Of a stretch of 64,000 bases of DNA, positions 20,597-58,677 are shown one piece after another. The stretch's first letter is position 1. Each line of letters opens with the position of its first letter. Source of the stretch: Phocaeicola massiliensis B84634 = Timone 84634 = DSM 17679 = JCM 13223. Lineage in GTDB: Bacteria; Bacteroidota; Bacteroidia; Bacteroidales; Bacteroidaceae. Below the pieces are notes generated by a model. It saw only the letters and a program-made list of their open reading frames with translations. It made no database searches and was not told the DNA's origin. The translations under genes were made by a program, and so were the position numbers. Where the stretch lies: assembly GCF_000382445.1 (NCBI RefSeq), contig NZ_KB905473.1:581043-645042 (forward strand). The letters are read 5' to 3'.

Positions 20597-21097
20597 CGGG
20601 AAAACCTTAATTATTAGTAAAATGGACAATTTTGTACACTTTTTATTGTTATCGCGCACGATTTTATTGTTTTCGCACACGAAAAACCGAATGATGTATT
20701 CTCTTTATTTAGAGTAACACAGTGCTTTTCTTGGTAACAATAACTTTTGTTTTATAAAAGATAGAAGGTCTGTTATTAAGGCAAAACAACTATATGGAAA
20801 GTAAATTTATCTGTAATTTTATTGTATCTGGATTGCCGGTGGTTGCTCTTCTATTGTGTATGGTTAAAAGTGTTTGATGAACAAATGTACATTTTCGGAT
20901 AGGCCGGAAAGCGTTTTTGAAAAACCCTTAAGTCTCCTTTCGGAACAATCCATTCTTTTCTAAACAATCCTAAGTTCTTTATTTATAATACCTTTACAAC
21001 TTTTAATGCTTGCTTTTTGAAAGGAAAGAAGATGTTGGTTTGTATTTAATCGATTGATAATGTGATGGATAAGATTTTGGGAGAGAAAAGAAAAAAA
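20597..21097. other. gene-free stretch left of the inverted repeats
   Basis: This A/T-rich stretch lies between the gatC promoter and the left inverted repeat. The only open frame of note is a 27-codon one at 20794-20877 (MESKF start, hydrophobic centre), for which I see no ribosome site or promoter. No RNA gene is recognised. Confidence 0.5.
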
Positions 21098-21122
21098 GTG
21101 CATCTCTTAGTAAGAGATACAC
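21098..21122. repeat. left inverted repeat of a candidate invertible segment
   Basis: A 25-bp near-palindrome centred on CTCTTAGTAAGAG. It is identical, in reverse complement, to 21274-21298, including the three bases that break its own symmetry. The palindrome extends locally through AAAA...TTTT flanks to 21094-21126. Confidence 0.8.
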
Positions 21123-21131
21123 TTTTCGCTG

Positions 21132-21139
21132 CAAATTTA
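21132..21139 (-). promoter_or_regulatory. -7-like element inside the candidate invertible segment
   Basis: TAAATTTG on the minus strand matches TAnnTTTG, with only a weak -33. It now points left, away from the AraC-type gene. Inversion between the repeats would turn it towards that gene. A second match, TATTTTTG, lies at 21193-21200 on the same strand. Confidence 0.4.
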
Positions 21140-21273
21140 CACAAAGTTTTGATAATTAAAACTTTTTGAGAAGAAAAATCACAAGACAAATGCAAAAATA
21201 TCTTTAGTCTTAAGTTTTAGGACGCTTTTTTATGGGCTTAAACGACTAATAATAAAGTGTTTATGTGCGTTCT

Positions 21274-21298
21274 GTGTATCTCTTACTAAGAGATGCAC
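21274..21298. repeat. right inverted repeat of a candidate invertible segment
   Basis: An exact inverted copy of 21098-21122. Its own palindrome extends through TGCGTTCT...AGAACGCA to 21266-21306, 41 bp in all. It ends about 65 bases before the AraC-type start codon, and no TAnnTTTG element lies between it and that gene. Confidence 0.8.
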
Positions 21299-21371
21299 AG
21301 AACGCAACCTCTTTTTAAAGGTTTGAAAAGTGAGTAATTATCTGAAATAGAGACAATAAAAAGAAACTACA

Positions 21372-21869
21372 ATGGACTACCTGTTTCTACACCGCGACAA
21401 GCGCACTTTTACTTCCGAAAGGCAGAAGAATCTGCTTTTCCGGGCTGCCCGGCTTTATTGGGAGCAGAAGTATGAAGGACGCGAACCGGAGAAAGCAAGA
21501 AAAGTCGATTGTGAGCTATATAAATATGTATTGTATTATTTGGAAGTGCGCCAAGTGTTTCTTGACCCGAAGCTCTCACTGAAGAAGCTGAGCGATATGA
21601 TTGAGACGAACCAAACCTATTTATCCAATGTGGTCAACCGCTACTTCGGTTGTCATCTGAAAGAGTTGGTAAATACGTATCGGGTGGAATATGCCAAGGA
21701 ACTGCTCCGTTCGGGCAAGTGTCTGCCGGAGGAGCTGCCTCAACGCTGCGGGTTCTTGTCGCGAAGTGCTTTTTATGCTGCTTTTAAAAAGGTGACGGGT
21801 GTTTCTCCCAAACGTTATATGAAATATGAAATGAGAGCACAGCACTCAGAATCAATAAATTATGTATAA
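21372..21869 (+). CDS. AraC-type helix-turn-helix protein without a sensor domain
   Basis: A 165-aa protein whose last 100 residues form an AraC DNA-binding domain: LSLKKLSDMIETNQTYLSNVVNRYFG, LVNTYRVEYAKELL, then CGFLSRSAFYAAFKKVTGVSPKRYMK. The first 60 residues are basic and short, with no membrane, cupin or receiver domain, so the signal it answers to is not visible. It is 44 bases ahead of the surface lipoprotein gene, with no promoter between them, implying co-transcription. With the inverted repeats upstream it forms a plausible switch module. Confidence 0.82.
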   Translation: MDYLFLHRDKRTFTSERQKNLLFRAARLYWEQKYEGREPEKARKVDCELYKYVLYYLEVRQVFLDPKLSLKKLSDMIETNQTYLSNVVNRYFGCHLKELVNTYRVEYAKELLRSGKCLPEELPQRCGFLSRSAFYAAFKKVTGVSPKRYMKYEMRAQHSESINYV

Positions 21870-21913: not shown

Positions 21914-24586
21914 ATGAACAAAAAGTTTTTAAGTGCAATCCTGTTCGGAGCCTTAATGGTTTCGTCAACAGGAACATTTGTGTCTTGTAAGGATTACGAC
22001 GATGACATCGATGCAATCAACAAGGAACTGACCGATCTGAAATCAAAACTTTCAGATCTTGAAAGTAAAGTAAATGCCGGTGGCGCTTATGTTACCAAGA
22101 TTGAATCGGTAGACGGTGGTTTCAAAGTATCGGTAAGCGACGGTACTTCTTACAACCTGACCGTTGCCAGTGCTGCTCCCGGTAGCAAGGTTGTGATTGA
22201 CGACAAGACCGGTGAAATCAGTATTGATGGCAAAGCTACAGGTTGGTTTGCTACTACGGGTGAAGGTGAAGAAGCTGTGGATATGACTCCGTATGTAAAA
22301 GACGGATATTGGTATTTCTATGACAAAGCAGCAAAAGACTTTGTGAAGTCTGAATACAAAGCTGCCGGTGATGCTTATGCAGTAGTAAAAGACGGTGTAG
22401 TGACTCTGCATATGCCGGATGAAAGCGGTAAGATGCAATCTATCGTATTACCGTTGACTGCTAATGCGTTGACTGCTATTTCTTTGCCTGCCGGATTGAC
22501 AATCGGTAATACTGTTGCTACAGGTGCTGCTGCTGATGCTGAGGCAATCTCTTCAGCGAAAGCTGCTAAATTAGATTGGAAAGGTCCTAAAGGTGCCATT
22601 GAAAAGGATCAATTCTTAGTTGGTCAGATTGGTGTTGCTGATTTGGTTGTTTCTCCTAAGAATTACGATTTGTCTGCTCAAAAACTTACTTTGGTAGACA
22701 GCAAGGGTAATGTAGCTCCTGTTAAGGTTATTGCTACTCCTAATACATTTAATAGCGTTATTGTTGGCGATCGTGCAGCTTCTGAAAACGGTAATTGGAA
22801 CTTGACGGTGGAAATGACTGATGAGGTTACTGCTGATAATATTAATAAGGTATTTAAAGGTACAGGTGCTAATGCTGATAAGGAAATTTTGTATGCTTTG
22901 TGTGTAAATGGTATTCCTTATACTGCTTATGATATTGCCATTAAAACAAAAGCACCTGAAACATCTGTTGCAGCGATTACTTTTGCTGCTGATAAGCTGT
23001 CTTATATAGATGCAGAAGGTACAGAAGTTAAAGGCGCTACTGATGCTATTGAACTTCCTGTAGGAACGACAACATTGAAGTATGCTGCTGCTAACTTGTA
23101 TGACTCTTATATCACTTTTGAAGGAACATATAAGGCAAAAGCTGAAAAATTAGGTGTTAAAGCAGATGGTATGACTGTTACTGTTCCGCAAGCTGCAAGT
23201 GGTGAAACTCTTGTTGCAACTGTACACATGGTGAATATCGGTGGTGTAGAAACTACGACTTCTAATACTATCACTTTGAAGTTGGCAGGTGCTTCTATCG
23301 ATACTCCGACAGAAATTTCTGCTACCGAGTATAAGGTTATGCCGAACGCTGATTTCACTAAAGTATTACCTGCTATCCTGATTGACTTAGGTGATGCATT
23401 GAGTAAATTGGATGCAGCAACAATTGAAGCTGTACAGAATGCAAACCAGCTTTCTGTAGTTGAAGCTGCAACCCAGGAAGGATTTATTGTTGCTAGTACT
23501 GCTAATGTGTTTACATCAATTTATTACAAAGCTAATGCTCAGGGTAAGAAAGGTGAAGTATGGGATGCTAGCAATGATGGTCTTGAATCACTTCGCTTTA
23601 TTGAAATAGCTGTAGCTACTTCTAAATCTGATAATAAGGTAGCTGAGGATGCTAAGCCGGGTAAATACACATTGAATTTGGTAATCAAGGACGGTACTAC
23701 TGTTGGTAATGAAATCGCTAAGATTGCTATGCCTGTAAATGTGACAGTTCCTGCATTCGATGATTTGTTTGCTGCAACAGATGCTTGGACAGAAGGTGTA
23801 TATGGAGCTAGAATTTATCCTTCTACCAATGATGCATTAATCAGTATGTCAAATGCATACACTGCTAAATCGGGAGTAGATGCTAATTACAATAAGATTG
23901 CTTATGCTTTTGATAAGATTAATAATGTTGCTGTTGGTACAGTAGGTAATGCTCAGCAGGTAACTTTGGATAAGGCTGTAGTTTACAAAGACAAGGCTCT
24001 TGCTAACAGTGAATTGAAAGCAACTGCTTCTTATAGTATTTTGGACGCAATGACTGCATATACCGGTTCAGGTAGTGAAACCACCAAATTAACAGCTATT
24101 AAGAAAGCATTTACTGTTGAATCATCTAAGTTTACAGTAAAACTTCAGACTATCTTTGATGGTGGTAAGATTGTATTCTATAAAGATAATGCAGTTGTTA
24201 CCGGTACGGTTGGTATAGATGCTGATGGTAAAATAGCCGGATTGACCATATCTGGCAATAAAAAACAAGGTTTGGCTATTAACTTCTTAAGCGCAGACTT
24301 AGCTGTAAATTCAACTAATGTTGCAGATTCTTATCCAAGTGCTGATGCTAACAAATTACAAGGATATGCATTCGGTAATAGCAATGCAGCAGCTGCTTCG
24401 GGTAAGCAAATCAAAGTAACATGGAGTACAGGTATTCCTACAGTAACAGTAGCAGAGGGTACTGATGGATTAGAGTTCACAAATAGCGATCTGTCTTCTC
24501 CTACTTACGAAACTACCTTGACTGCAACATTTGAAGATGCTACAGGTATTGTATATACTTCAAGCATTAAGGTGGAAAAGAAATAA
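21914..24586 (+). CDS. large surface lipoprotein, S-layer-like
   Basis: An 890-aa protein. The signal peptide ends in a lipobox (FVSC), giving lipidated Cys25, followed directly by KDYDDDID. Such an acidic run after C-K is the Bacteroidetes surface-export signal. Residues 30-55 form a coiled coil (DAINKELTDLKSKLSDLESKV). The rest is rich in Ala, Val, Thr, Asp and Lys with repeated beta-type blocks and almost no cysteine. The N-terminus resembles the phase-variable S-layer-like lipoproteins of B. thetaiotaomicron, as I recall them. No enzyme motif is seen. A role as abundant surface coat is inferred. It lies behind an AraC-type gene and a candidate invertible promoter. Confidence 0.72.
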   Translation: MNKKFLSAILFGALMVSSTGTFVSCKDYDDDIDAINKELTDLKSKLSDLESKVNAGGAYVTKIESVDGGFKVSVSDGTSYNLTVASAAPGSKVVIDDKTGEISIDGKATGWFATTGEGEEAVDMTPYVKDGYWYFYDKAAKDFVKSEYKAAGDAYAVVKDGVVTLHMPDESGKMQSIVLPLTANALTAISLPAGLTIGNTVATGAAADAEAISSAKAAKLDWKGPKGAIEKDQFLVGQIGVADLVVSPKNYDLSAQKLTLVDSKGNVAPVKVIATPNTFNSVIVGDRAASENGNWNLTVEMTDEVTADNINKVFKGTGANADKEILYALCVNGIPYTAYDIAIKTKAPETSVAAITFAADKLSYIDAEGTEVKGATDAIELPVGTTTLKYAAANLYDSYITFEGTYKAKAEKLGVKADGMTVTVPQAASGETLVATVHMVNIGGVETTTSNTITLKLAGASIDTPTEISATEYKVMPNADFTKVLPAILIDLGDALSKLDAATIEAVQNANQLSVVEAATQEGFIVASTANVFTSIYYKANAQGKKGEVWDASNDGLESLRFIEIAVATSKSDNKVAEDAKPGKYTLNLVIKDGTTVGNEIAKIAMPVNVTVPAFDDLFAATDAWTEGVYGARIYPSTNDALISMSNAYTAKSGVDANYNKIAYAFDKINNVAVGTVGNAQQVTLDKAVVYKDKALANSELKATASYSILDAMTAYTGSGSETTKLTAIKKAFTVESSKFTVKLQTIFDGGKIVFYKDNAVVTGTVGIDADGKIAGLTISGNKKQGLAINFLSADLAVNSTNVADSYPSADANKLQGYAFGNSNAAAASGKQIKVTWSTGIPTVTVAEGTDGLEFTNSDLSSPTYETTLTATFEDATGIVYTSSIKVEKK

Positions 24587-24617
24587 TACGTCTTTAGTAT
24601 TTATCTTTAATATGGAA

Positions 24618-24645
24618 GAGCATCCTTCGGGGTGCTCTTTTTTTT
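24618..24645 (+). terminator. UUCG-loop terminator after the surface lipoprotein gene
   Basis: An eight-base stem GAGCATCC/GGGTGCTC closed by a TTCG tetraloop and followed by a run of Ts, 31 bases after the stop codon. Confidence 0.85.
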
Positions 24646-24767
24646 GAATGGTAGCAGCCGGGAATTCATTTTACTCCTGCCACAGTGGAACTGACTGACA
24701 ATTGCTCATACAGTTTGTTGGATGTGAAGGGTAAAGTAGCCGATATTATTGTTTCTACTCCTTCTAA

Positions 24768-24866
24768 GGGCTCGCCCGAAAACTGTTTGCTTTGTGTCTT
24801 CGGGCAGGCAAACCCTGCCCCTACATCTGACAATTGGATAGCCCGGTTTAGTTTTGACACACTCCC
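24768..24866. repeat. MITE-like extragenic palindromic element, copy 3 (inverted)
   Basis: In reverse orientation to copy 1. From GGGAGTGTGTCAAAAC (24866 leftwards) through the G-rich arm at 24824 to the CGGGCGAGC end it matches copy 1 nearly base for base. The far side runs into unrelated text (24660-24767), where only CCTGCCACAGT is shared with copy 1, so the copy is truncated at one end. Confidence 0.65.
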
Positions 24867-24900
24867 TTCTCATTCTCAGTTGAGAATTATATCCCATTCA

Positions 24901-24954
24901 ATCGGGAAGTGAATATCTTCGGTAACGGATTCTATTCACTTCCCGATTTTTTAT
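24901..24954. terminator. strong hairpin with T tract
   Basis: A perfect 15-bp stem beginning ATCGGGAAGTGAATA (24901-24915) pairs with 24933-24947, followed by TTTTTTATT. It stands alone, with no gene directly before it on the plus strand. Confidence 0.55.
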
Positions 24955-24993
24955 TGAATTTGATTGATGCGATATACAATTTTCACAATGACA

Positions 24994-25090
24994 TATATAC
25001 GTGCAGGTTCATGCGTACGTACGTGTAGCTCGATGCGTATATACGTGTGGGCTTATGCCACCGTATGTGTGGCCCGATGCGTACGTACAC
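24994..25090. repeat. 22-bp imperfect tandem repeats, four units plus a partial
   Basis: Units at 24994, 25016, 25038 and 25060 follow the pattern TAnnTACGTGnnGnnCnATGCG, with a fifth partial unit at 25082. The internal TACGTAC/TATATAC steps are self-complementary. No reading frame gives a credible protein. Confidence 0.7.
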
Positions 25091-25123
25091 ATTTTAAAAT
25101 AGGCAGCTTGCACTGTATGTTGC

Positions 25124-25165
25124 AAAAAGACCTTGAGGATTTTTAAAAACATCAAGGTCTTTTTT
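25124..25165. terminator. bidirectional terminator-like hairpin
   Basis: A 13-bp stem AAAAAGACCTTGA/TCAAGGTCTTTTT with a loop of about 15 bases gives A and T tracts on both sides. Confidence 0.55.
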
Positions 25166-25711
25166 GAAAACACCACCTTCTTTTTTAAAAAGCTCGGCAT
25201 GTTTTTCCTGTAAGGGCAGAATGCATCCCCTCACTAAGTCGGTTATTCCTTCTTCTCCGTTCATCCTTTCATTTTAGCCGAAATGTGCGGATAATCAGAT
25301 TGTTAAGAATGACAGGACATCCCTTCATCCTCCTTTCAGCCGTGCTTCCCAAGTCCCTTCACAAGCTGCCTTCAGCCTTTATCCTGCCGGAAGAAGTTTT
25401 ACGAATGAAAGGAGGCTGAAAGGGTGGTGACACAATGTTCATTCACTACCGGCCCCCCATCAATAGGGCGTTTCAACGACTAATGAAAGGAGAAAGGGAG
25501 AAATCCTTGAAATCTCAAGTATGCTTTTGATCTACTCTTGCCGTCAATGGTTTCATCGCTATTGGTAAACCAAGCCGCGAAGCGTGAAGCCTTGTTGTTT
25601 GGGAAACATTGTGCCAAAGACCCATCGGGATGAGAGGTTGTTTCTATTTTGGAAACAGCTGCATCTTTTCGTAATTTTCCCTTTTTAAAATACTGTTTTT
25701 ATGTTCTGATA
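25166..25711. other. gene-free stretch before the S9 peptidase promoter
   Basis: About 550 bases with no convincing open frame. It contains the inverted pair CCTTTCAGCC (25333) and GGCTGAAAGG (about 25417) and several short C-rich runs. It may be remnants of a lost gene or element, but I recognise none. Confidence 0.4.
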
Positions 25712-25743
25712 TTTGTTGGGTATGCTGTTTTTATGTACTTTTG
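25712..25743 (+). promoter_or_regulatory. promoter of the S9 peptidase gene
   Basis: TTTG at 25712-25715, a 20-base spacer and TACTTTTG at 25736-25743 match the Bacteroidetes consensus. The expected start near 25750 gives a leader of about 190 bases. This also rules out the 62-codon frame that would begin at a TTG inside the -7 element. Confidence 0.7.
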
Positions 25744-25941
25744 AACCGTTATTTTATTGAGTATCTGTTACATGAAAGAACACATATCTCTGATTTTTAC
25801 AGTAGTCTTTTCAAGAACTTGAAAAAACAGACCGGTTTGGTACCTGTCGGGCTTATAAAGGATGATAAGAGTTACGTTTTAAGCAGCATACTTCCACAAG
25901 ATATAATAAAGAAGAAACTAACACGATAACAAATAAATATT

Positions 25942-28389
25942 ATGAAGAAAATGCTATTGTTCACCTTGTTGGTAGGTGGATTATGTACAACTACACCCGT
26001 AGTACAGGCACAAGAAAGGTTGCCGGAGTACTTACAGGCGGAAAAATTTACTCAGGAGAAACTGAACACCATGTTGTTCTCTACTGTGGTAGACCCTCAT
26101 TGGTTTCAGAAAGGGAATAACTTCTGGTTTCAGTATAAAACAAGTGAAGGTACCTTTTGGTATGTGGTAGACCCTTCGGTACGCAGTAAGAAGCAGCTTT
26201 TCGACCGTGATGAAATGGCCTCGCAGCTGACCGAAATTGTAAAAGACCCTTTTGAAGCGCGTCATCTTCCCATCAGAAACTTGAAAGCTCAGGAAGACGG
26301 TCGTACTTTTACTTTTGAGGTGGTATCTTCTCAGGATGCCAAGCCCAAGAAGGAGGATAAGGAGAAAAAAGATAAAAAAGGCAAGACCGAGAAAGAAGTC
26401 TTTTATTTTTCCTACGATTATCCCACCCGTAAGCTCACTCATCTGAAAGATAAAGAAAAAGAACCCAAGAAAATCAGATGGGGGTCAATCTCTCCTGACG
26501 GAAAGACGGTGGTTTATGCCAAAGACCTGAATCTTTATCGTATGAGCCGTGAAGATTATGAGAAGGCAAAGAAGAATGAAAAGGACAGTACTATTGTCGA
26601 AATTCAGCTGACCAAAGACGGTGTGGAAGATTTTGGCTACGGTATTCCTTACAGTACGCTCAACACTGATACGCTGTGTAATGGCAAGCGTCGCAGGGTG
26701 TATGGGGTGTGGTCGCCCGACTCCCGTCATTTTGCAATGACCGTTTCCGATGACCGGGCCGTAAAAGAGTTGTGGGTGATTAACTCTATGGCACAACCGC
26801 GTCCTACCCTGGAAACTTATAAATATCAGATGCCCGGTGAAAAAGAAGCTCCGATAGAACATTTGTATTTGTTTGATATGAGTGACAACAGCCGGAAAGA
26901 AATAAAGGTGGACGCTTATAAAGATCAGACTTTGGGACTCTCTTACAGTCCGTGGCTACAGAAACAGCGTGATATGGAAGATCAGCCTTCAATCTGGCTG
27001 GGTGACAATAACCGTTTCTATCTTTCACGTAAAAGCCGTGACTTGCATCGGATAGATATTTGTTCTTACACTGTGGGGCAGGATTCTATTGTTCCTGTTA
27101 TTAAAGAGCGTATGAATACTTATCAGGAAACGCGTCCTTTGCATCTTTTGAGCAATGGAAAAGAACTGATACAGTGGAGTGAACGCGACGGTTGGGCGCA
27201 TCTTTATTTATATGATGATAAAGGTAATCTGAAAAACCGTATCACAAAGGGACCTTGGCATGTGGAAGAAATATTGAAAGTAGACAATAAAGCGCGTGTC
27301 ATTTATTTCACTGCCAATGGTATGAACCCGAACGAGAACCCGTATTATGAGCACTTGTATCGGGTGAATTTGGATGGTAGCGGACTGAAGCAACTTTCAA
27401 AGGGAGATTATTTCCACCGCGTGGAAGTGGATGATGAGGCTCGTTTTGTGGTGGATAACTTTTCACGTGTCAATACAGTGCCTTGTGCCGACTTGCTGGA
27501 TACGAACGGTAATAAAGTGATGACGATTCAGGAAAGTGATTTCTCGCAGCTTTTTGCTGCCGGTTACAAGTTTCCCGAACCTTTTAAGGTGAAAGCTGCC
27601 GATGGAGTGACCGACCTTTATGGTGTGATGTATAAACCGTTTAATTTCGATTCTACAAAGGTATATCCTATTGTAGACTATGTTTATCCGGGGCCGCAGG
27701 TTGAAGGTACGGTTTATCCGTTTACCCGTATGACTCCGCGTACAGACCGATTGGCACAAGCCGGTTTCATCGTCATTTCGGTAGGACAACGTGGCGGACA
27801 TCCAAGCCGTTCCAAGTGGTATCATAACTATGGATATGGCAATATGCGCGATTATCCCTTGGCCGACCACAAATATGCTATCGAGCAGTTGGCAATGCGT
27901 TATAATTATATAGATATAGATAAAGTGGGTATTCACGGACATTCAGGAGGCGGATTTATGAGTACGGCTGCCATGTGTCAATATCCTGACTTCTTTAAGG
28001 TTGCCGTTTCATGTGCCGGAAACCATGATAATAATATTTATAACCGTTGGTGGAGCGAAACGCATCACGGAGTAAAGGAAGTGGTAAGCGAAAAGGGAGA
28101 TACTACCTTTGTTTACAAGATAGCGACCAATCCTCAGATTGCTAAACAGCTGAAAGGCAATTTGCTGCTGATTCACGGTGATATTGATAACAATGTGCAT
28201 CCGGGTAATACACTGCGCGTGGTTGATGCATTGATCCGTGCCGGCAAACGCTTTGATATGCTGATTTTACCGCAGCAGCGCCACGGATTCGGTGACATGA
28301 ATGAATATTTCTATTGGAGACTGGTGGATTATTTCTCAGAACATCTGAAAGGAAAGAGTGAGAAGTCTGTGGATATTCCCAAACGTTAG
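25942..28389 (+). CDS. S9 family peptidase, dipeptidyl-peptidase IV type
   Basis: An 815-aa exported serine peptidase. A signal peptide (KKMLLFTLLVGGLCTTTPVVQA) is followed by a beta-propeller DPP4_N-like region and an alpha/beta-hydrolase domain from about residue 560. The catalytic triad is Ser668 in GHSGGG, Asp749 in HGDIDNNVH and His781 in QQRHGFG. A lysine-rich insert (KPKKEDKEKKDKKGK) lies near residues 134-148. The family removes dipeptides, often after proline, from peptide N-termini in the periplasm. The gene has its own promoter at 25712 and ends at a shared terminator. Confidence 0.9.
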   Translation: MKKMLLFTLLVGGLCTTTPVVQAQERLPEYLQAEKFTQEKLNTMLFSTVVDPHWFQKGNNFWFQYKTSEGTFWYVVDPSVRSKKQLFDRDEMASQLTEIVKDPFEARHLPIRNLKAQEDGRTFTFEVVSSQDAKPKKEDKEKKDKKGKTEKEVFYFSYDYPTRKLTHLKDKEKEPKKIRWGSISPDGKTVVYAKDLNLYRMSREDYEKAKKNEKDSTIVEIQLTKDGVEDFGYGIPYSTLNTDTLCNGKRRRVYGVWSPDSRHFAMTVSDDRAVKELWVINSMAQPRPTLETYKYQMPGEKEAPIEHLYLFDMSDNSRKEIKVDAYKDQTLGLSYSPWLQKQRDMEDQPSIWLGDNNRFYLSRKSRDLHRIDICSYTVGQDSIVPVIKERMNTYQETRPLHLLSNGKELIQWSERDGWAHLYLYDDKGNLKNRITKGPWHVEEILKVDNKARVIYFTANGMNPNENPYYEHLYRVNLDGSGLKQLSKGDYFHRVEVDDEARFVVDNFSRVNTVPCADLLDTNGNKVMTIQESDFSQLFAAGYKFPEPFKVKAADGVTDLYGVMYKPFNFDSTKVYPIVDYVYPGPQVEGTVYPFTRMTPRTDRLAQAGFIVISVGQRGGHPSRSKWYHNYGYGNMRDYPLADHKYAIEQLAMRYNYIDIDKVGIHGHSGGGFMSTAAMCQYPDFFKVAVSCAGNHDNNIYNRWWSETHHGVKEVVSEKGDTTFVYKIATNPQIAKQLKGNLLLIHGDIDNNVHPGNTLRVVDALIRAGKRFDMLILPQQRHGFGDMNEYFYWRLVDYFSEHLKGKSEKSVDIPKR

Positions 28390-52848: not shown

Positions 52849-52896
52849 AGTGCAAGGTGCAAGCGTATATATATATACGCACTTGCACCTTGCACT
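52849..52896. repeat. 48-base cruciform with doubled GTGCAAG arms
   Basis: The left arm carries GTGCAAG twice in tandem and the right arm its complement, 15 bp perfectly paired, then a two-base bulge and a CGTATA/TATACG inner stem. It lies between the left island repeat and arsR. Function unknown. Confidence 0.7.
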
Positions 52897-52915
52897 GAAA
52901 AAAAATATGATGAAA

Positions 52916-52946
52916 TTTGCTATCTCGAATATTGTTCGTATATTTG
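52916..52946 (+). promoter_or_regulatory. promoter of the ars operon
   Basis: TTTG (52916-52919), 19 bases, TATATTTG (52939-52946): a full consensus match. Transcription should start near 52953, leaving only about 11 bases of leader before the arsR ATG at 52964. Confidence 0.75.
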
Positions 52947-52963
52947 CGAACAATATTCGAGAT
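52922..52963. promoter_or_regulatory. ArsR operator palindrome
   Basis: Two perfect 17-bp arms (52922-52938 and 52947-52963) surround the eight-base -7 element. The palindrome ends on the base before the arsR start codon. A repressor bound here would block RNA polymerase; arsenite release by ArsR is the family mechanism. Confidence 0.75.
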
Positions 52964-53290
52964 ATGGAAGAAAAGAAAGATTATACTGTTACGCAGGAAC
53001 AGTTGGCAAGATTTGCCAAAGCATTGGGACATCCTGCCCGAATTGCTATTATGCACTTTTTGGCAAAGCAGAAAACGTGTTATTTTGGGGATATTCACGA
53101 AGAACTTCCCATTGCCAAAGCAACCGTATCACAGCACTTGAAAGAGTTGAAAGATGCAGGACTTATACAAGGAGAGGTTGAAACGCCTAAAGTGAAATAC
53201 TGTATCAACCGAGAGAATTGGCAATTGGCTCGTGAACTCTTTAAAGAGTTTTTCGGGCAATGTATCTGTAAATCGGGGGAGTGTTGCTGA
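52964..53290 (+). CDS. arsR: ArsR/SmtB-family metalloid-responsive repressor
   Basis: A 108-aa winged-helix repressor. The fold is clear: ARFAKALGHPARIAIMHFLA, then the recognition helix region ELPIAKATVSQHLKELKDAGLI and the wing VETPKVKYCIN. Possible metalloid ligands are Cys39 and the C-terminal Cys100, Cys102, Cys107 and Cys108, a layout unlike the alpha-3 CxC pair of E. coli ArsR. The ATG at 52964 is chosen because an upstream in-frame start would place the promoter and operator inside the gene. It leads the island's plus-strand operon. Confidence 0.9.
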   Translation: MEEKKDYTVTQEQLARFAKALGHPARIAIMHFLAKQKTCYFGDIHEELPIAKATVSQHLKELKDAGLIQGEVETPKVKYCINRENWQLARELFKEFFGQCICKSGECC

Positions 53291-53360
53291 TAATCCCCCT
53301 TTTTTAATATTGATGTTCGTTGTTTTGCGAATTACGTTTAATATAATAAATTTATAAATT

Positions 53361-53591
53361 ATGGAAATTAAAGTATTAGGAACAGGCTGTGCAGGTTGTA
53401 AGGCTCTGTATGCAACGGTTGAACAAGTAGTAAAAGAATTAGCTTTGGAAGCGGTAATAACCAAAGAAGAAGATTTGATGAAGATTATGGAATACAATGT
53501 AATGACGCTTCCTGCTCTCGTTGTTGACGGTAAGGTTGTGGCAAAGGGCAAACTTTCTGCCAAAGAAGTAAAAGATGTATTAACCAAGTAA
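53361..53591 (+). CDS. arsE: small thioredoxin-fold protein, ArsE-like
   Basis: A 76-aa cytosolic redox protein with the active site Cys10-Ala-Gly-Cys13 and the cis-proline region MTLPALVVDGKVV. It belongs to the short redox-active disulfide (MTH895-like) family. In ars clusters with arsF and arsG, the ArsE product is reported to help reduce nitro-aromatic arsenicals. I base the symbol on that gene order, not on sequence alone. It follows arsR by 70 bases and precedes arsF by 8. Confidence 0.75.
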   Translation: MEIKVLGTGCAGCKALYATVEQVVKELALEAVITKEEDLMKIMEYNVMTLPALVVDGKVVAKGKLSAKEVKDVLTK

Positions 53592-53599
53592 ATCAGATT

Positions 53600-54007
53600 A
53601 TGATGAAACGCTTTTTATTCCTTACCATTGCTTGTTTGTTTTCTATTTGGGGAATGGCTCAGATTGCCGCAGATACCTATGTGGAAGTTCTTTATTTTCA
53701 TGGGAAACAACGTTGTGTAACTTGCAAAGCCATTGAGAAATATACGAAAGAAGTGGTCAATGCAGATTTGGCAGAGTTGGTTAAAAATGGCAAACTACGT
53801 TTCAAAGAAGTAGATATTTCAACTCCCGAAGGCGAGAAGCTGGCAGAGAAATATCGTGTAAGTTGGTCTTCTCTTTATGTTAATAAATGGAAGAACGGTA
53901 AAGAAGAACGTAACGACATGACACGCTTTGGCTTTCAGAATGCCCGGAACAATACATCGGCTTTCAAGAAAGAATTAAAACAGAAAATCAATCAGTTGCT
54001 AAAATAA
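53600..54007 (+). CDS. arsF: exported thioredoxin-like protein, ArsF family
   Basis: A 135-aa protein with a signal peptide (residues 1-20, ending GMA/Q) and a thioredoxin-like fold with Cys39-Val-Thr-Cys42 in FHGKQRCVTCK, followed by KFKEVDIS-type beta strands. This matches the ArsF-type subunit described in nitrophenyl arsenical reduction, with its redox pair outside the cytosol. It is the partner of arsE (8 bases upstream) and of the membrane protein ArsG (10 bases downstream), which could pass electrons across the membrane. Confidence 0.75.
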   Translation: MMKRFLFLTIACLFSIWGMAQIAADTYVEVLYFHGKQRCVTCKAIEKYTKEVVNADLAELVKNGKLRFKEVDISTPEGEKLAEKYRVSWSSLYVNKWKNGKEERNDMTRFGFQNARNNTSAFKKELKQKINQLLK

Positions 54008-54017
54008 ATACAGTCTT

Positions 54018-54731
54018 ATGGAATACTTGCAAACATGGTTGGATAATAGTGAGATACCTATTATTACCGCTTTTCTGCTCGGTCTGTTGACTGCTGTAAG
54101 TCCTTGCCCATTGGCTACCAACATTACCGCTATTGGATTTATTAGTAAGGATATAAATAACCGTAACCGGATATTTACAAATGGTGTTTTATATACTTTA
54201 GGGCGTGTATTGGCTTATTCTGCATTAGGCGCGATACTTATCGCAATACTCCGAAAGGGTGCAGATATGTTTGCCATACAAAAAGGTATCAGCGAATGGG
54301 GGGAACTGCTGCTTGCTCCTGCTTTGATGTTGATAGGGCTGTTTATGCTATTCGGAGATAAATTGCAATTACCTAAGTTCGGATTTTCCGCTACTGAAAA
54401 GACAGAAAAACTAAAAGGCTCATGGGGTAGTTTGTTGCTGGGGATATTGTTTGCCATGGCATTTTGTCCGACCAGTGGTCTATTTTATTTTGGCATGCTT
54501 ATTCCCATGTCAGCTATGGAAAGTGAGGGGTATTTGCTACCTGTCATTTTTGCATTGGCAACAGGGCTCCCAGTTATGCTTGTCGCTTGGATTTTGGCAT
54601 ACAGTGTAGCAGGGATAGGAAAGTTTTATAACCGTGTGCAGACTTTTCAGAAGTGGTTTAATAACATGGTAGCTATACTGTTTATTTTGGTTGGCATTTA
54701 TTATGGATTGATAAATTGGGGTATAATATGA
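54018..54731 (+). CDS. arsG: CcdA-like membrane protein, ArsG-type permease
   Basis: A 237-aa protein with six membrane segments in the CcdA/DsbD-like fold. Two cysteine-proline signatures are visible: AVSPCPLATNITAIGF near residue 29 and AFCPTSGLFYFGMLIP near 151. In CcdA such cysteines relay reducing power; in the ArsG family the protein is described as an efflux permease for aromatic aminoarsenicals. Either role fits between arsF and arsC. Its stop overlaps the arsC start (ATGA). Confidence 0.78.
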   Translation: MEYLQTWLDNSEIPIITAFLLGLLTAVSPCPLATNITAIGFISKDINNRNRIFTNGVLYTLGRVLAYSALGAILIAILRKGADMFAIQKGISEWGELLLAPALMLIGLFMLFGDKLQLPKFGFSATEKTEKLKGSWGSLLLGILFAMAFCPTSGLFYFGMLIPMSAMESEGYLLPVIFALATGLPVMLVAWILAYSVAGIGKFYNRVQTFQKWFNNMVAILFILVGIYYGLINWGII

Positions 54732-55177
54732 AAATTTTAATTTTATGTACAGGAAATAGCTGTCGCAGTCAAATGGCGCATGGTTTCCTGCAATCGTTTG
54801 ATAAGAATATACAAGTGTATTCCGCTGGTACGCATCCGGTTGAGAAAGTTAATCCTTTGGCTGTTAAGACAATGGCAGAAGTTGGCATTGATATAAGTAA
54901 GCATATTCCTACCAATGTAACTGCTTATTTAAGTGATACATGGGATTATGTGATAACAGTATGCGGTAGTGCTAACGAAACGTGTCCGGCTTTTGAGGGC
55001 AATGTAGGGAAACGGTTGCATATTGGTTTTGATGACCCCTCGGAAGTAATAGGGACAACGGACTTCATCAGAAGCGAATTTGAAAGAGTGCGTAATGAAA
55101 TCAAGAATGAATTTGCCAAGTTCTACATTACAGAGATAAAAAAACAAGAACTGCCTAAATGTGCTTGTAACCGCTAA
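54728..55177 (+). CDS. arsC: arsenate reductase, thioredoxin-coupled LMW-PTP type
   Basis: A 149-aa enzyme that reduces arsenate to arsenite. The phosphate loop C7TGNSCR13 holds the nucleophile Cys7, and the Cys79/Cys86 pair (VCGSANETCP) completes the thiol relay known from S. aureus pI258 ArsC (Cys10, Cys82, Cys89). The basic C-terminal CACNR tail is unusual. The start is the ATG at 54728, four bases inside arsG, not the TTG upstream. Thioredoxin or ArsE could reduce it; which one is unknown. Confidence 0.9.
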   Translation: MKILILCTGNSCRSQMAHGFLQSFDKNIQVYSAGTHPVEKVNPLAVKTMAEVGIDISKHIPTNVTAYLSDTWDYVITVCGSANETCPAFEGNVGKRLHIGFDDPSEVIGTTDFIRSEFERVRNEIKNEFAKFYITEIKKQELPKCACNR

Positions 55178-55222
55178 TTTTTTAGGTAATATGTTCGTAT
55201 TATTACAAACAATAATAGGATT

Positions 55223-56191
55223 ATGATACAAAGGTTTGCAGATTGGCTGGTGTATGACATCTTCGGTTTGGATGCTTCAACAGCTTTAGGAGAAGCTATA
55301 AACTTCTTCTTTTACGATACGATAAAGATTTTGATATTATTATTTTTTATCAGCGTGATAATGGGAATTATAAATGCTTATTTCCCGATAGAACGTTTGC
55401 GCAATTATTTGACCTCTCGTAAACTATATGGATTGCAATATTTCTTTGCAGCCTTATTTGGTGCTATTACCCCGTTCTGTTCCTGTTCTTCCATACCGCT
55501 GTTTATCGGATTTGTGAAAGGGGGTATTCCTTTGGGGGTAACATTCGCCTATTTGATAACCTCGCCTTTGGTGAATGAGGTTGCTGTTGCCATGTTTATT
55601 GGCACTTTTGGGTTGCGTATTACTTCTATTTATGTGATTAGCGGTATTATGTTAGGTATGGTAGGTGGATTTATTTTGGGCAAGATGAAATTGGAGCCTT
55701 ATTTGAGTGATTGGGTAAAACAAATTCAGCAAAACTCAACTTCCGACTCCGGAACATGGGAAAAAGAGCATACTCCGTTCTTTAGACGATTGCCGATTAT
55801 CATGCAAGAAGCATGGGGCATTGTCAAAGGTGTACTTCTGTATATCCTTATCGGCATCGGTATCGGTGCATTTATGCACGGCTATGTACCGGAAGGATTT
55901 TTTGAGCAGTATATGTCTAAGGATAATTGGTTTGCAGTTCCTTTATCAGTAGTGTTGGCAGTTCCAATGTATGCCAATGCTGCCGGAATAGTACCGGTAA
56001 TTGAAGTTTTTGTAGCTAAGGGTATCCCCATAGGAACTGCGCTTGCTTTTATGATGGCAGTTGTTGGGCTGTCATTGCCCGAAGCTACGCTGTTGAAAAA
56101 AGTAATGACTTGGCGGCTGATAGGGATATTCTTTGGATTGATAACCTTATTTATTATTGTATTAGGTTATCTTTATAACATTGTGTTATAG
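55223..56191 (+). CDS. arsP: ArsP/UPF0718-family permease
   Basis: A 322-aa membrane protein with eight predicted segments. The family hallmark is TPFCSCSSIPLFIGFVKGGIPLGVTFAYLITSPLVNEVAV near residues 85-125; the Cys-Ser-Cys there is conserved in ArsP, which exports trivalent methyl and aromatic arsenicals. A second related motif, AVPMYANAAGIVPVIEVFVAKGIPIG, lies near residue 250. It is last of the ars genes and 45 bases after arsC. Arsenite export cannot be excluded from sequence. Confidence 0.78.
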   Translation: MIQRFADWLVYDIFGLDASTALGEAINFFFYDTIKILILLFFISVIMGIINAYFPIERLRNYLTSRKLYGLQYFFAALFGAITPFCSCSSIPLFIGFVKGGIPLGVTFAYLITSPLVNEVAVAMFIGTFGLRITSIYVISGIMLGMVGGFILGKMKLEPYLSDWVKQIQQNSTSDSGTWEKEHTPFFRRLPIIMQEAWGIVKGVLLYILIGIGIGAFMHGYVPEGFFEQYMSKDNWFAVPLSVVLAVPMYANAAGIVPVIEVFVAKGIPIGTALAFMMAVVGLSLPEATLLKKVMTWRLIGIFFGLITLFIIVLGYLYNIVL

Positions 56192-56208
56192 CGCAATATG
56201 TTGTGAGT

Positions 56209-57069
56209 ATGGAATATGCAGCAATTAAAAGCTACGTTAGTAAATTACTCTTTCAGATACAGACCGAAATAAATATTTCTAATTCTGACGAATGTATAGG
56301 GATTGATAGGGCGTTACACATGATGCGTTTTATTAGACCTTTGTGTGATGAACTTAGGAAGCATACAGTAAATTATCAGTTTAGGGACGAGGCGGAAGAA
56401 ATCTATTTCTTTAAAGAACTAAAGCCGGAAGTATTAAGTAAATATATGTACTATAACAAAATTTATGTTATAGAAAGTAAATTCCCAACAGGTAGTGATG
56501 TTGCGCAAAAAGAATATCTGTACAATGAACTAAATAGTTTAACATTCTATTTCAGTAGGAATTTGGACTTTTACCAGTATTACCGTTCTAAATCTACTTA
56601 TTTGGATAGATACTATTTTACCCGAAATCAAAATGATTTACGAATATGTACAGACAGTTCCCATATTGATAAAGACCCTCTATATTCAACCGGATATGAT
56701 TTTAAAGTGGCTAAAATTATTACTAACGAACTGTTGAAAATCTATTTGACTAACAGATTGCAGGAATTGGAGCGTATTGTACAGCGCAAAGCGGATAACG
56801 GACAGGTTGTAGAAAGTATTTTGCGTTGGACTGGCTCTAAAAGGGCGTTGGTAGAACTGATTTATGCTTTAGAAGCGAATGGGGATTTTAATAAAGGAAC
56901 GGCTACTTTAAAAGAGATTGCAGGATATTTTGAAAATGTGTTCAGTATAGATATTGGTGATTTATATCATTCTTATTTGGAAATGCGAAGCCGTAAAATA
57001 AATAGAACTCGGTATTTGGAGACATTGCAAAAAAGTCTGCTCCGAAGAATGGATGAAAACGATACATGA
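56209..57069 (+). CDS. rteC: RteC-family protein
   Basis: A protein of about 286 aa, matching RteC of Bacteroides conjugative transposons: an N-terminal helical region with RFIRPLCDELRKH, the central FFKELKPEVLSKYMYYNKIYVIE and a C-terminal winged-helix-like part with WTGSKRALVELIYALEANGDFNKGTATLKEIA. In CTnDOT, RteC turns on excision genes after tetracycline. Here there is no rteA/rteB and no excisionase, so it may be a fossil or control the nearby integrase. A GTG two codons earlier (56203) is an alternative start. Confidence 0.85.
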   Translation: MEYAAIKSYVSKLLFQIQTEINISNSDECIGIDRALHMMRFIRPLCDELRKHTVNYQFRDEAEEIYFFKELKPEVLSKYMYYNKIYVIESKFPTGSDVAQKEYLYNELNSLTFYFSRNLDFYQYYRSKSTYLDRYYFTRNQNDLRICTDSSHIDKDPLYSTGYDFKVAKIITNELLKIYLTNRLQELERIVQRKADNGQVVESILRWTGSKRALVELIYALEANGDFNKGTATLKEIAGYFENVFSIDIGDLYHSYLEMRSRKINRTRYLETLQKSLLRRMDENDT

Positions 57070-57115
57070 TGCGAGTTTTATTTTCTTTTCGCAAGTAATT
57101 ATATTCTTGATAATA

Positions 57116-57157
57116 AATAAACCATTCAGTATTTCAATCAATATTGAATGGTTTATT
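57116..57157 (+). terminator. terminator after rteC
   Basis: A 13-bp stem AATAAACCATTCA/TGAATGGTTTATT with a 16-base loop, 47 bases after the rteC stop, ending in TTATTGTTTTC. Confidence 0.6.
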
Positions 57158-57450
57158 GTTTTCAATCAATCCAGTTTTCTTGAAATCTTGCTTTCAATCA
57201 ATCAGGCTATCAATATTTCAATAAAACAAGATTGCAGAATTACAAAAATAAACTCATCGGTCGGGGAACGCCCAGCGGCAAGGGGCGGGACCACCCGTCC
57301 CGACGAGCGAAAAAATCTTTAGTTAGGAAATGTCTTTCTTTCATTGGCAACACGACTTTGGAGTGAATTTGCCCAAGGTGTTTTGCGGCACGGAAAACAG
57401 ATTTGTGTGCCACAAATCACACCTTGCTGTTATCTGACGATAACACGATT
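57158..57450. other. gene-free stretch with a GC-rich block
   Basis: 57258-57308 is strikingly G+C-rich against A/T-rich surroundings and contains nested inverted arms GTCGGG/CCCGAC and CGGGAC/GTCCCG. Nearby are three TTTCAATCAAT copies (57134-57205). It lies between rteC and the 3' end of the integrase. I see no gene. Confidence 0.5.
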
Positions 57451-58677
57451 TCAACGGCTGGCAGTACGATTTGGAACGTCCAGTTTTTGAGCCAACATTT
57501 CCATGTCGCCACTTACTTTCAAATCGGTAATCCTCGCATAAATTTGAGTAGTTCTGATGTTGGTATGACCTAAAATCTTAGATACAGTTTCAATGGGAAC
57601 ACCGTTTGCGAGCAGCACCGAAGTGGCGCACGAATGCCGGGCTACATGGTAGGTCAAGGTCTTTTCAATCCCGCAAATGGCTGCGATTTCTTTTAAGTAA
57701 TCATTCATTTTCTGATTGCTGATAACTGGTAAAATCTTACCGTTTGGCAATTTGTCTCTGTACTTTTCCAATATGGCTTTTGGTATATCCAGCAATCGGA
57801 CAGTAGATGTAACATTTGTTTTATGTCTTTTCCGTATAATCCACAAATTACCGTCAAATCCGGTGCGAATGTCCTCCTGCCTTAACTCGCATACATCAAT
57901 GTATGAAAGTGCCGTGTAACAACTGAAAATGAACAAATCACGTACCTGCTCCAACCGTTTAGAGCTAAACTCGTGGTTGTAAATGGTGGTAATTTCTTCC
58001 ATAGTCAGATAATCCCTATCGGTACGTTCAAACCTTACCCGATAACTCCCAAAAGGGTCGGCAGTCACTAAACCCGTATTCTTGGCAAAGTTTACTACCG
58101 TGCGAAAACGTTGTATGAACTTCATAGCCGTATTATGGCTGCACCCATAGTTATTCTTGATATACAACAGGAAATCTTCAATGAATACCACATTTATATC
58201 TTTAATGAGCATATCGGAAACGGAGTATTTAAACTTCATAAACTCCATAAGCCGTTTCTTTGTCAGTTCATAACGTGAATAGGTCTTGTCTGCGGTATTC
58301 ATTTTGACCTTTTGCAAATACTGCTCGTTGTGCTGTTTGAAGAACTCTATCAAAGTCCGTTCCCTTGCTATCTTACCTAAAAAAGCGTTCTTTACCAGTT
58401 CTGCGGTTACATATCCGTCTTGCGCCATTAACGCATGGTAATGTTGATGAACTGTGCTACGAATACTTTCCAGCATGGAATTGATGTGTACGGCTTCTGC
58501 GGTTCTGCCGGAAGCCTTGCCTAATTCCACGCTCCAGTGAGTCGGATTTATTTCCAGTTTGGTGTTAAACTGGGCTACAACTTGGTCGATAGTGATACGT
58601 GCGATAATCGGTGCATTACCGTTCTTCTTTACTGCATTTCGTTTGACGAAATAGAGTAGCTTAAAAGTACTTCTCAT
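57451..58677 (-). CDS. int: tyrosine recombinase (integrase), IntDOT-like
   Basis: A 408-aa site-specific recombinase. It has an Arm-binding N-terminus, a SAM-like core-binding region (110-215) and a catalytic domain with Lys286, His344-x-x-Arg347, His371 and the nucleophile Tyr380. The first catalytic arginine is replaced by Ser258 in YTALSYIDVCEL, the same change known from IntDOT. It adjoins the right island repeat and is transcribed away from the tRNA, the usual arrangement for a tRNA-targeting element. It probably moved the island. Confidence 0.92.
   Translation of the reverse strand: MRSTFKLLYFVKRNAVKKNGNAPIIARITIDQVVAQFNTKLEINPTHWSVELGKASGRTAEAVHINSMLESIRSTVHQHYHALMAQDGYVTAELVKNAFLGKIARERTLIEFFKQHNEQYLQKVKMNTADKTYSRYELTKKRLMEFMKFKYSVSDMLIKDINVVFIEDFLLYIKNNYGCSHNTAMKFIQRFRTVVNFAKNTGLVTADPFGSYRVRFERTDRDYLTMEEITTIYNHEFSSKRLEQVRDLFIFSCYTALSYIDVCELRQEDIRTGFDGNLWIIRKRHKTNVTSTVRLLDIPKAILEKYRDKLPNGKILPVISNQKMNDYLKEIAAICGIEKTLTYHVARHSCATSVLLANGVPIETVSKILGHTNIRTTQIYARITDLKVSGDMEMLAQKLDVPNRTASR

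Follow-up and report, generated by a model that had tools for sequence, protein, structure and literature searches.

A candidate invertible promoter, in the OFF orientation and one of nine, precedes an AraC-type gene and a large lipoprotein gene in Phocaeicola massiliensis

The araC–lipoprotein locus and its repeat pair

The window (the whole stretch of 64,000 nucleotides that was analysed) contains an AraC-type regulator gene (araC) and a large lipoprotein gene, which are preceded by two inverted repeats enclosing a promoter that points in the opposite direction. The features of the locus are the following.

21093..21127, minus strand: extended distal palindrome (AAAAGTG...CACTTTT) with a T tract on its left side, resembling a terminator for the promoter in its OFF direction
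21098..21122, plus strand: distal inverted repeat, putative recombination site, sequence GTGCATCTCTTAGTAAGAGATACAC, with the 17-bp core ATCTC-TTAGTAA-GAGAT at 21102-21118
21123..21273, no strand: 151-bp segment with promoter, presumed invertible
21132..21139, minus strand: -7 box of the Bacteroidales type, TAAATTTG, directed away from araC (OFF)
21266..21306, plus strand: terminator-like palindrome of the araC leader (TGCGTTC...GAACGCA), extending the proximal repeat, with a ACCTCTTTTT tail
21274..21298, minus strand: proximal inverted repeat, putative recombination site, with its core at 21278-21294
21372..21869, plus strand: AraC-type regulator gene (165 aa; HTH_18 / HTH_AraC), the first gene behind the switch
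21914..24586, plus strand: large lipoprotein gene (890 aa), with an N-terminus common to its paralogues, weak DUF4988 similarity and a hypervariable remainder
24618..24645, plus strand: hairpin with T8, from its sequence a likely operon terminator

The two 25-bp repeats are exact inverted copies (25 of 25 positions) separated by 151 nt, as the sequence-only reading had described them, and within each arm, only positions 4, 13 and 22 break the self-palindrome. The TAnnTTTG element at 21132-21139, reported earlier as pointing left, reads TAAATTTG on the minus strand, and a further leftward match is found at 21193-21200. The araC side indeed lacks a promoter box facing the gene, with no rightward TAnnTTTG within 21098-21372. 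TAnnTTTG alone is weak evidence, since 22% of shuffled 151-bp spacers contain one on either strand. The box counts as strong evidence here because the TAAATTTG-type box, together with an upstream TCAAAACTTTG, is conserved at the switch loci and its distance to the repeat is constant at all 20 loci compared. The near-palindrome AAAGTTTTGATAATTAAAACTTT at window positions 21143-21165 is present in all cassettes of the window's clade and shares sequence with the upstream part of the promoter. It is a possible operator, and the AraC-type protein might be what binds it.

The lipoproteins behind the switches begin with MNKKFLSAILFGALM...CKDYDDD, and their first ~32 residues are constant across cassettes while the rest differs. 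In an alignment of ten lipoproteins from this genome, the mean identity is 79% in the first 50 columns and about 20% beyond. DUF4988 similarity is observed in 10 of 16 aligned members. The structure model of the lipoprotein is weak (pLDDT 55.9, pTM 0.34) and mostly β. Foldseek matched it to multi-domain β-sandwich proteins, with S-layer proteins near the top of the list; the TM-scores do not suffice to assign a fold, and a PDB search with the lipoprotein sequence returned no match. By analogy, the lipoprotein may form an S-layer-like coat. Downstream of the lipoprotein gene, no ORF of at least 90 aa was found at 24586-25942 of the window.

Cassettes in the genome and in relatives

The P. massiliensis genome (4.65 Mb, 15 contigs) was searched with the 25-mer (up to three mismatches) and the 17-bp core (up to one mismatch). 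The 25-mer search yielded nine inverted pairs genome-wide, compared with zero for a reversed-pattern control, so that the window pair lies far above chance. The core occurs at 18 sites, all within the nine pairs. The start-to-start spacing is 175-176 bp in eight pairs and 188 bp in one. In the ~12 kb read around each pair, an AraC-type ORF (162-168 aa) and a MNKKFLSAILFGALM lipoprotein are present at all nine loci, and the araC and lipoprotein reading frames are intact. The promoter faces away from araC at every one of the nine loci, with a variant box, TATTTTTG, at L014. No conserved gene was found at these loci on the side that the OFF promoter faces. At L009, a mobilizable element of ~11 kb, containing mobilization-type genes and two tandem tyrosine integrases, interrupts the locus at the start codon of the lipoprotein gene, which picks up again beyond the insert (L194; G000:C2:66000-80000), and the switch is disconnected from its cargo.

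Other araC–lipoprotein loci lack the repeats. At L080 of the same genome and L043 of P. sartorii, a related promoter, TATATTTGCAGC, is fixed toward araC, and L082 and L083 have TACTTTTG. The functional direction of the promoter is therefore toward araC. The repeat-less loci of the P. massiliensis genome, L080 (G000:C1:2984391) and L083 (G000:C4:304189), both with the promoter fixed toward araC, may encode a default-expressed coat.

Among the 61 Phocaeicola genomes, 8 contain an araC homologue. The relatives compared, one genome per species, include P. faecalis FXJYN30E22, P. vulgatus ATCC 8482 and P. sartorii. The araC relatives in the remaining genera of the family are distant and have no repeats of the ATCTC-N7-GAGAT type, and neither the site pair nor an araC relative was found in viral contigs. 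From several Phocaeicola species, 30 distinct araC-linked site pairs were collected, and the promoter faces away from araC in each. The comparison with related genomes that had been proposed as a way to find the flipped version thus returned OFF junctions only among the 61 Phocaeicola genomes, and no ON copy is present among all araC-linked cassettes examined, at one genome per species.

Putative signatures of inversion, rival readings and the search for a recombinase

The centre base of the core varies between loci (G in 23, C in 6, T in 3 and A in 3 of 35 pairs). The set includes five pairs from other Bacteroidales, and many of its loci are related, so the pairs do not represent 35 independent events. 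The sequence-only reading had held that all three symmetry-breaking bases match in the inverted orientation only. This stands for the centre, which matches in the inverted register in 35 of 35 pairs and in the direct register in none, but not for positions 4 and 22, which differ between the arms elsewhere. The centre has changed several separate times: the P. vulgatus centres ACC and GAT, as well as the ATT class, are altered in both arms together. Such matching within pairs is what strand exchange over the crossover region requires.

Three loci, L070, L078 (P. faecalis) and L028, contain a single hybrid core that joins both outer flanks, and the segment is absent. This is the product expected from a rare deletion, when two near-palindromic sites are misaligned as they recombine. 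It could alternatively come from slippage, since such sites almost form direct repeats as well, or from misassembly at L070 and L028, both of which lie near contig ends. The same core also flanks promoters in other Bacteroidales. In L060 (Muribaculaceae) and L056 (a goat Bacteroidaceae MAG), the gene that follows it is an unrelated one, toward which the promoter points; the specificity of the recombinase would therefore be wider than the araC–lipoprotein family.

The palindromes extend into the flanks of the sites, and inversion would remove the outer 7-8 bp of the proximal stem. Across the 30 araC-linked pairs, a mean of 11.8 of 16 flanking positions match as sequenced, compared with 7.2 after inversion in silico. 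The match is higher as sequenced in 25 of these pairs and lower in three, the loci being related and hence non-independent. The predicted hairpin of the araC leader is stronger in the OFF orientation at 24 of 30 loci and weaker at three (mean -21.3 versus -12.9 kcal/mol), and the loci with a stronger OFF hairpin include P. vulgatus loci with quite different flanks. This extended palindrome, complete only in the OFF orientation and giving the araC leader a strong predicted hairpin, is a new feature. At L056, where the promoter faces the gene, the flanks match at 8 of 16 positions as sequenced and would match at 16 of 16 if flipped. Flank palindromy as a general predictor of orientation was rejected, as L064 and L069 are not simple fits. 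Both extended window palindromes score as terminators, and the 901-bp region contains three terminator-like sites against 0.3 expected. T tracts are not conserved outside the window's clade, so a terminator role is proposed for no more than a portion of the family. Alternatively, the longer palindrome may help the recombinase to bind.

A single orientation throughout would also fit elements that do not invert. The palindromes could be two fixed operators or hairpins, such as AraC sites or terminators, on either side of a promoter that points left. On this account, the single orientation of all araC-linked copies, the terminator-like scores of both window palindromes and the extension of each palindrome in its present orientation would be expected. 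However, nothing requires operators to match at a variable centre base in the inverted register only, as all 35 pairs do. In other families, same-core sites flank promoters that belong to unrelated genes, some of these promoters being directed toward the gene, and L056 has the non-palindromic flanks expected of a flipped copy. Moreover, the side that the promoter faces has no conserved gene, and the fixed paralogues face araC without palindromes. Fixed operators are thus an improbable explanation. We consider equally improbable a relic, that is, a formerly invertible switch now locked OFF after the loss of its cognate invertase. The relic would explain why no invertase was found among the candidates and no ON state among the copies, and single-site deletion derivatives would be in keeping with it. 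Nevertheless, the site cores and the promoter are intact at nine loci and in several species, and the araC and lipoprotein frames are unbroken. In addition, BT1927 of Bacteroides thetaiotaomicron is likewise OFF in about 999 of 1,000 cells, according to PMC12548429.

Dispersed mobile palindromes of the REP or MITE kind, placed upstream of paralogues by chance and copied by gene duplication, would account for the near-identical copies at nine loci alongside duplicated araC genes. This origin is very unlikely, given that all 18 core sites are arranged in nine pairs with none stray and that the centre bases co-vary. The core is also kept while the flanks and the spacer length diverge between clades, which argues for function rather than passive hitch-hiking.

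The repeats are very probably invertase sites, and the segment between them an invertible promoter in the OFF orientation for araC and the lipoprotein gene, one of nine such cassettes. This proposal of the sequence-only reading is supported by the shared architecture, the co-variation of the centre base, the fixed-promoter paralogues and the hybrid single sites, which, like copy number and orientation, are read directly from the DNA; that the segment inverts is the step that we infer from them. The enzyme would be a site-specific invertase that exchanges strands over the 7-bp crossover TTAGTAA; a tyrosine recombinase supplied in trans is the likeliest candidate. In the present orientation, the promoter would fire leftward into the adjacent hairpin and T tract, leaving araC and the lipoprotein gene silent. 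Inversion would point the promoter at araC, so that the regulator and the lipoprotein would be co-transcribed. At the predicted ON junction, GCAGCGAAAAGTG-core-GCACAGAACGCA, the end of the segment with the promoter would adjoin the outer flank on the proximal side. The nine cassettes would then constitute a phase-variable repertoire of surface proteins, with one or a few members expressed in rare cells. The AraC-type protein may act on its own operon or on the sibling cassettes.

We propose only tentatively, as a doubtful extension, that the sites double as orientation-dependent insulators, with palindromes that are complete only in the OFF state, an araC-side hairpin that inversion dismantles, and a two-part lock with cross-regulating AraC proteins. 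The araC leader would fold into a strong hairpin while the second hairpin blocks the promoter, and inversion would swap the inner half-stems as it turns the promoter, providing a lock at each of the nine lipoprotein loci.

The odd palindrome ATCTC-N7-GAGAT follows the 5+7+5 plan also seen in sites that lie beside tyrosine recombinases in the compared genomes. At L150 and L151, ACCTC-TTACACA-GAGGT adjoins a recombinase and a UpxY-like gene, and L147 contains a GTTAC-N7-GTAAC site of the same form. The site motif of B. thetaiotaomicron quoted in PMC12118408 is also of the 5+7+5 form. The odd length of the palindrome and its single co-varying centre base suggest a tyrosine-type 7-bp crossover rather than a serine-type 2-bp crossover, and the invertase is probably a tyrosine recombinase acting in trans. 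Among the candidates tested (L009, L125, L140 and L146), none was assigned as the cognate invertase, as each has another distribution or belongs to another element. The tandem recombinases of L009 were ruled out as a self-controlled invertase: they are part of the ~11-kb mobilizable insert, and P. faecalis contains the same sites without close relatives of these recombinases. The 388-aa tyrosine recombinase of L125 has relatives of at least 82% identity in five of the seven site-bearing genomes counted and of at most 70% elsewhere; it was rejected as the specific invertase because it lies between SusC-type genes and has its own 43-bp repeats in P. vulgatus. L146 and L140 were rejected because their distribution does not track the sites.

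Several recombinase loci were observed along the way. SusC-type genes flank the 388-aa tyrosine recombinase at L125, L116, L163 and L164, and the 43-bp inverted repeat in the SusC start regions at L163 (P. vulgatus) indicates a SusC shufflon. A UpxY-like capsule locus with an adjacent tyrosine recombinase contains a pair resembling an invertible promoter, ACCTCTTACACAGAGGT (L151 1008-1295, L150 560-829). At L119 and L114, a tyrosine recombinase beside HsdS-like restriction-modification specificity-type genes likely marks a phase-variable methylation locus. Within the window, 52850-58677 is a probable resistance island with genes for an ArsR-like regulator, a thioredoxin-like protein, a cytochrome biogenesis-like protein, a phosphatase-like ArsC and a permease; a tyrosine integrase (57451-58677) follows the ArsR/ArsC-like gene group.

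Significance and comparison with known systems

Few bacteria of the human gut are more common than P. vulgatus and its relatives, and comparable S-layers in Bacteroides affect phage resistance and complement killing. The cassettes suggest a reserve of silent coats available for activation in rare cells. Nine cassettes with one site make a testable system of one trans-acting recombinase and many silent coats, in which an unstudied AraC-type regulator may decide the choice of coat. Two features, a crossover base that co-varies and a hairpin complete only in the OFF state, offer testable design rules for Bacteroidales invertons. A literature search for the site sequence returned no match, and no araC-led lipoprotein switch was found in the Bacteroidales inverton literature, a coverage that did not extend to the primary BT1927 papers.

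The closest known system is the phase-variable S-layer BT1927 of B. thetaiotaomicron, of which the araC cassettes are best filed as a variant rather than a member. PMC12548429, PMC12118408 and PMC12578637 describe an inverted-repeat promoter before a large surface lipoprotein, a family of such loci and a mostly OFF state, all shared with the cassettes, whose promoters face away from araC in every araC-linked copy examined. The BT1927 S-layer is ON in about 1 in 1,000 cells, and mutation of one repeat locks its state (PMC12548429). The systems differ in the site, CCGTTACCTABVRAGTAAC for BT1927 and ATCTCTTANTAAGAGAT (ATCTC-N7-GAGAT) for the araC cassettes, and in the araC gene that precedes the lipoprotein gene in Phocaeicola. 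Unlike BT1927, the window locus and the own-genome stretches that were read have no linked integrase, save in the element inserted at L009/L194. BT1927 has an OmpA-family partner, the 8-stranded barrel BT1926, whereas the window lipoprotein gene is followed by a likely terminator and no partner gene.

The capsular invertible promoters of UpxY loci likewise place a TAnnTTTG promoter between inverted odd palindromic cores of the 5+7+5 form. In contrast to those loci, the araC cassettes have no UpxY/UpxZ, polysaccharide genes or adjacent recombinase, and their arm sequence differs. In B. fragilis, the serine invertase Mpi inverts many PSA-type promoters in trans from one site type. The araC cassettes presumably share this use of one site type in trans for many promoters, but their core suggests a 7-bp tyrosine crossover instead of the 2-bp serine crossover of Mpi.
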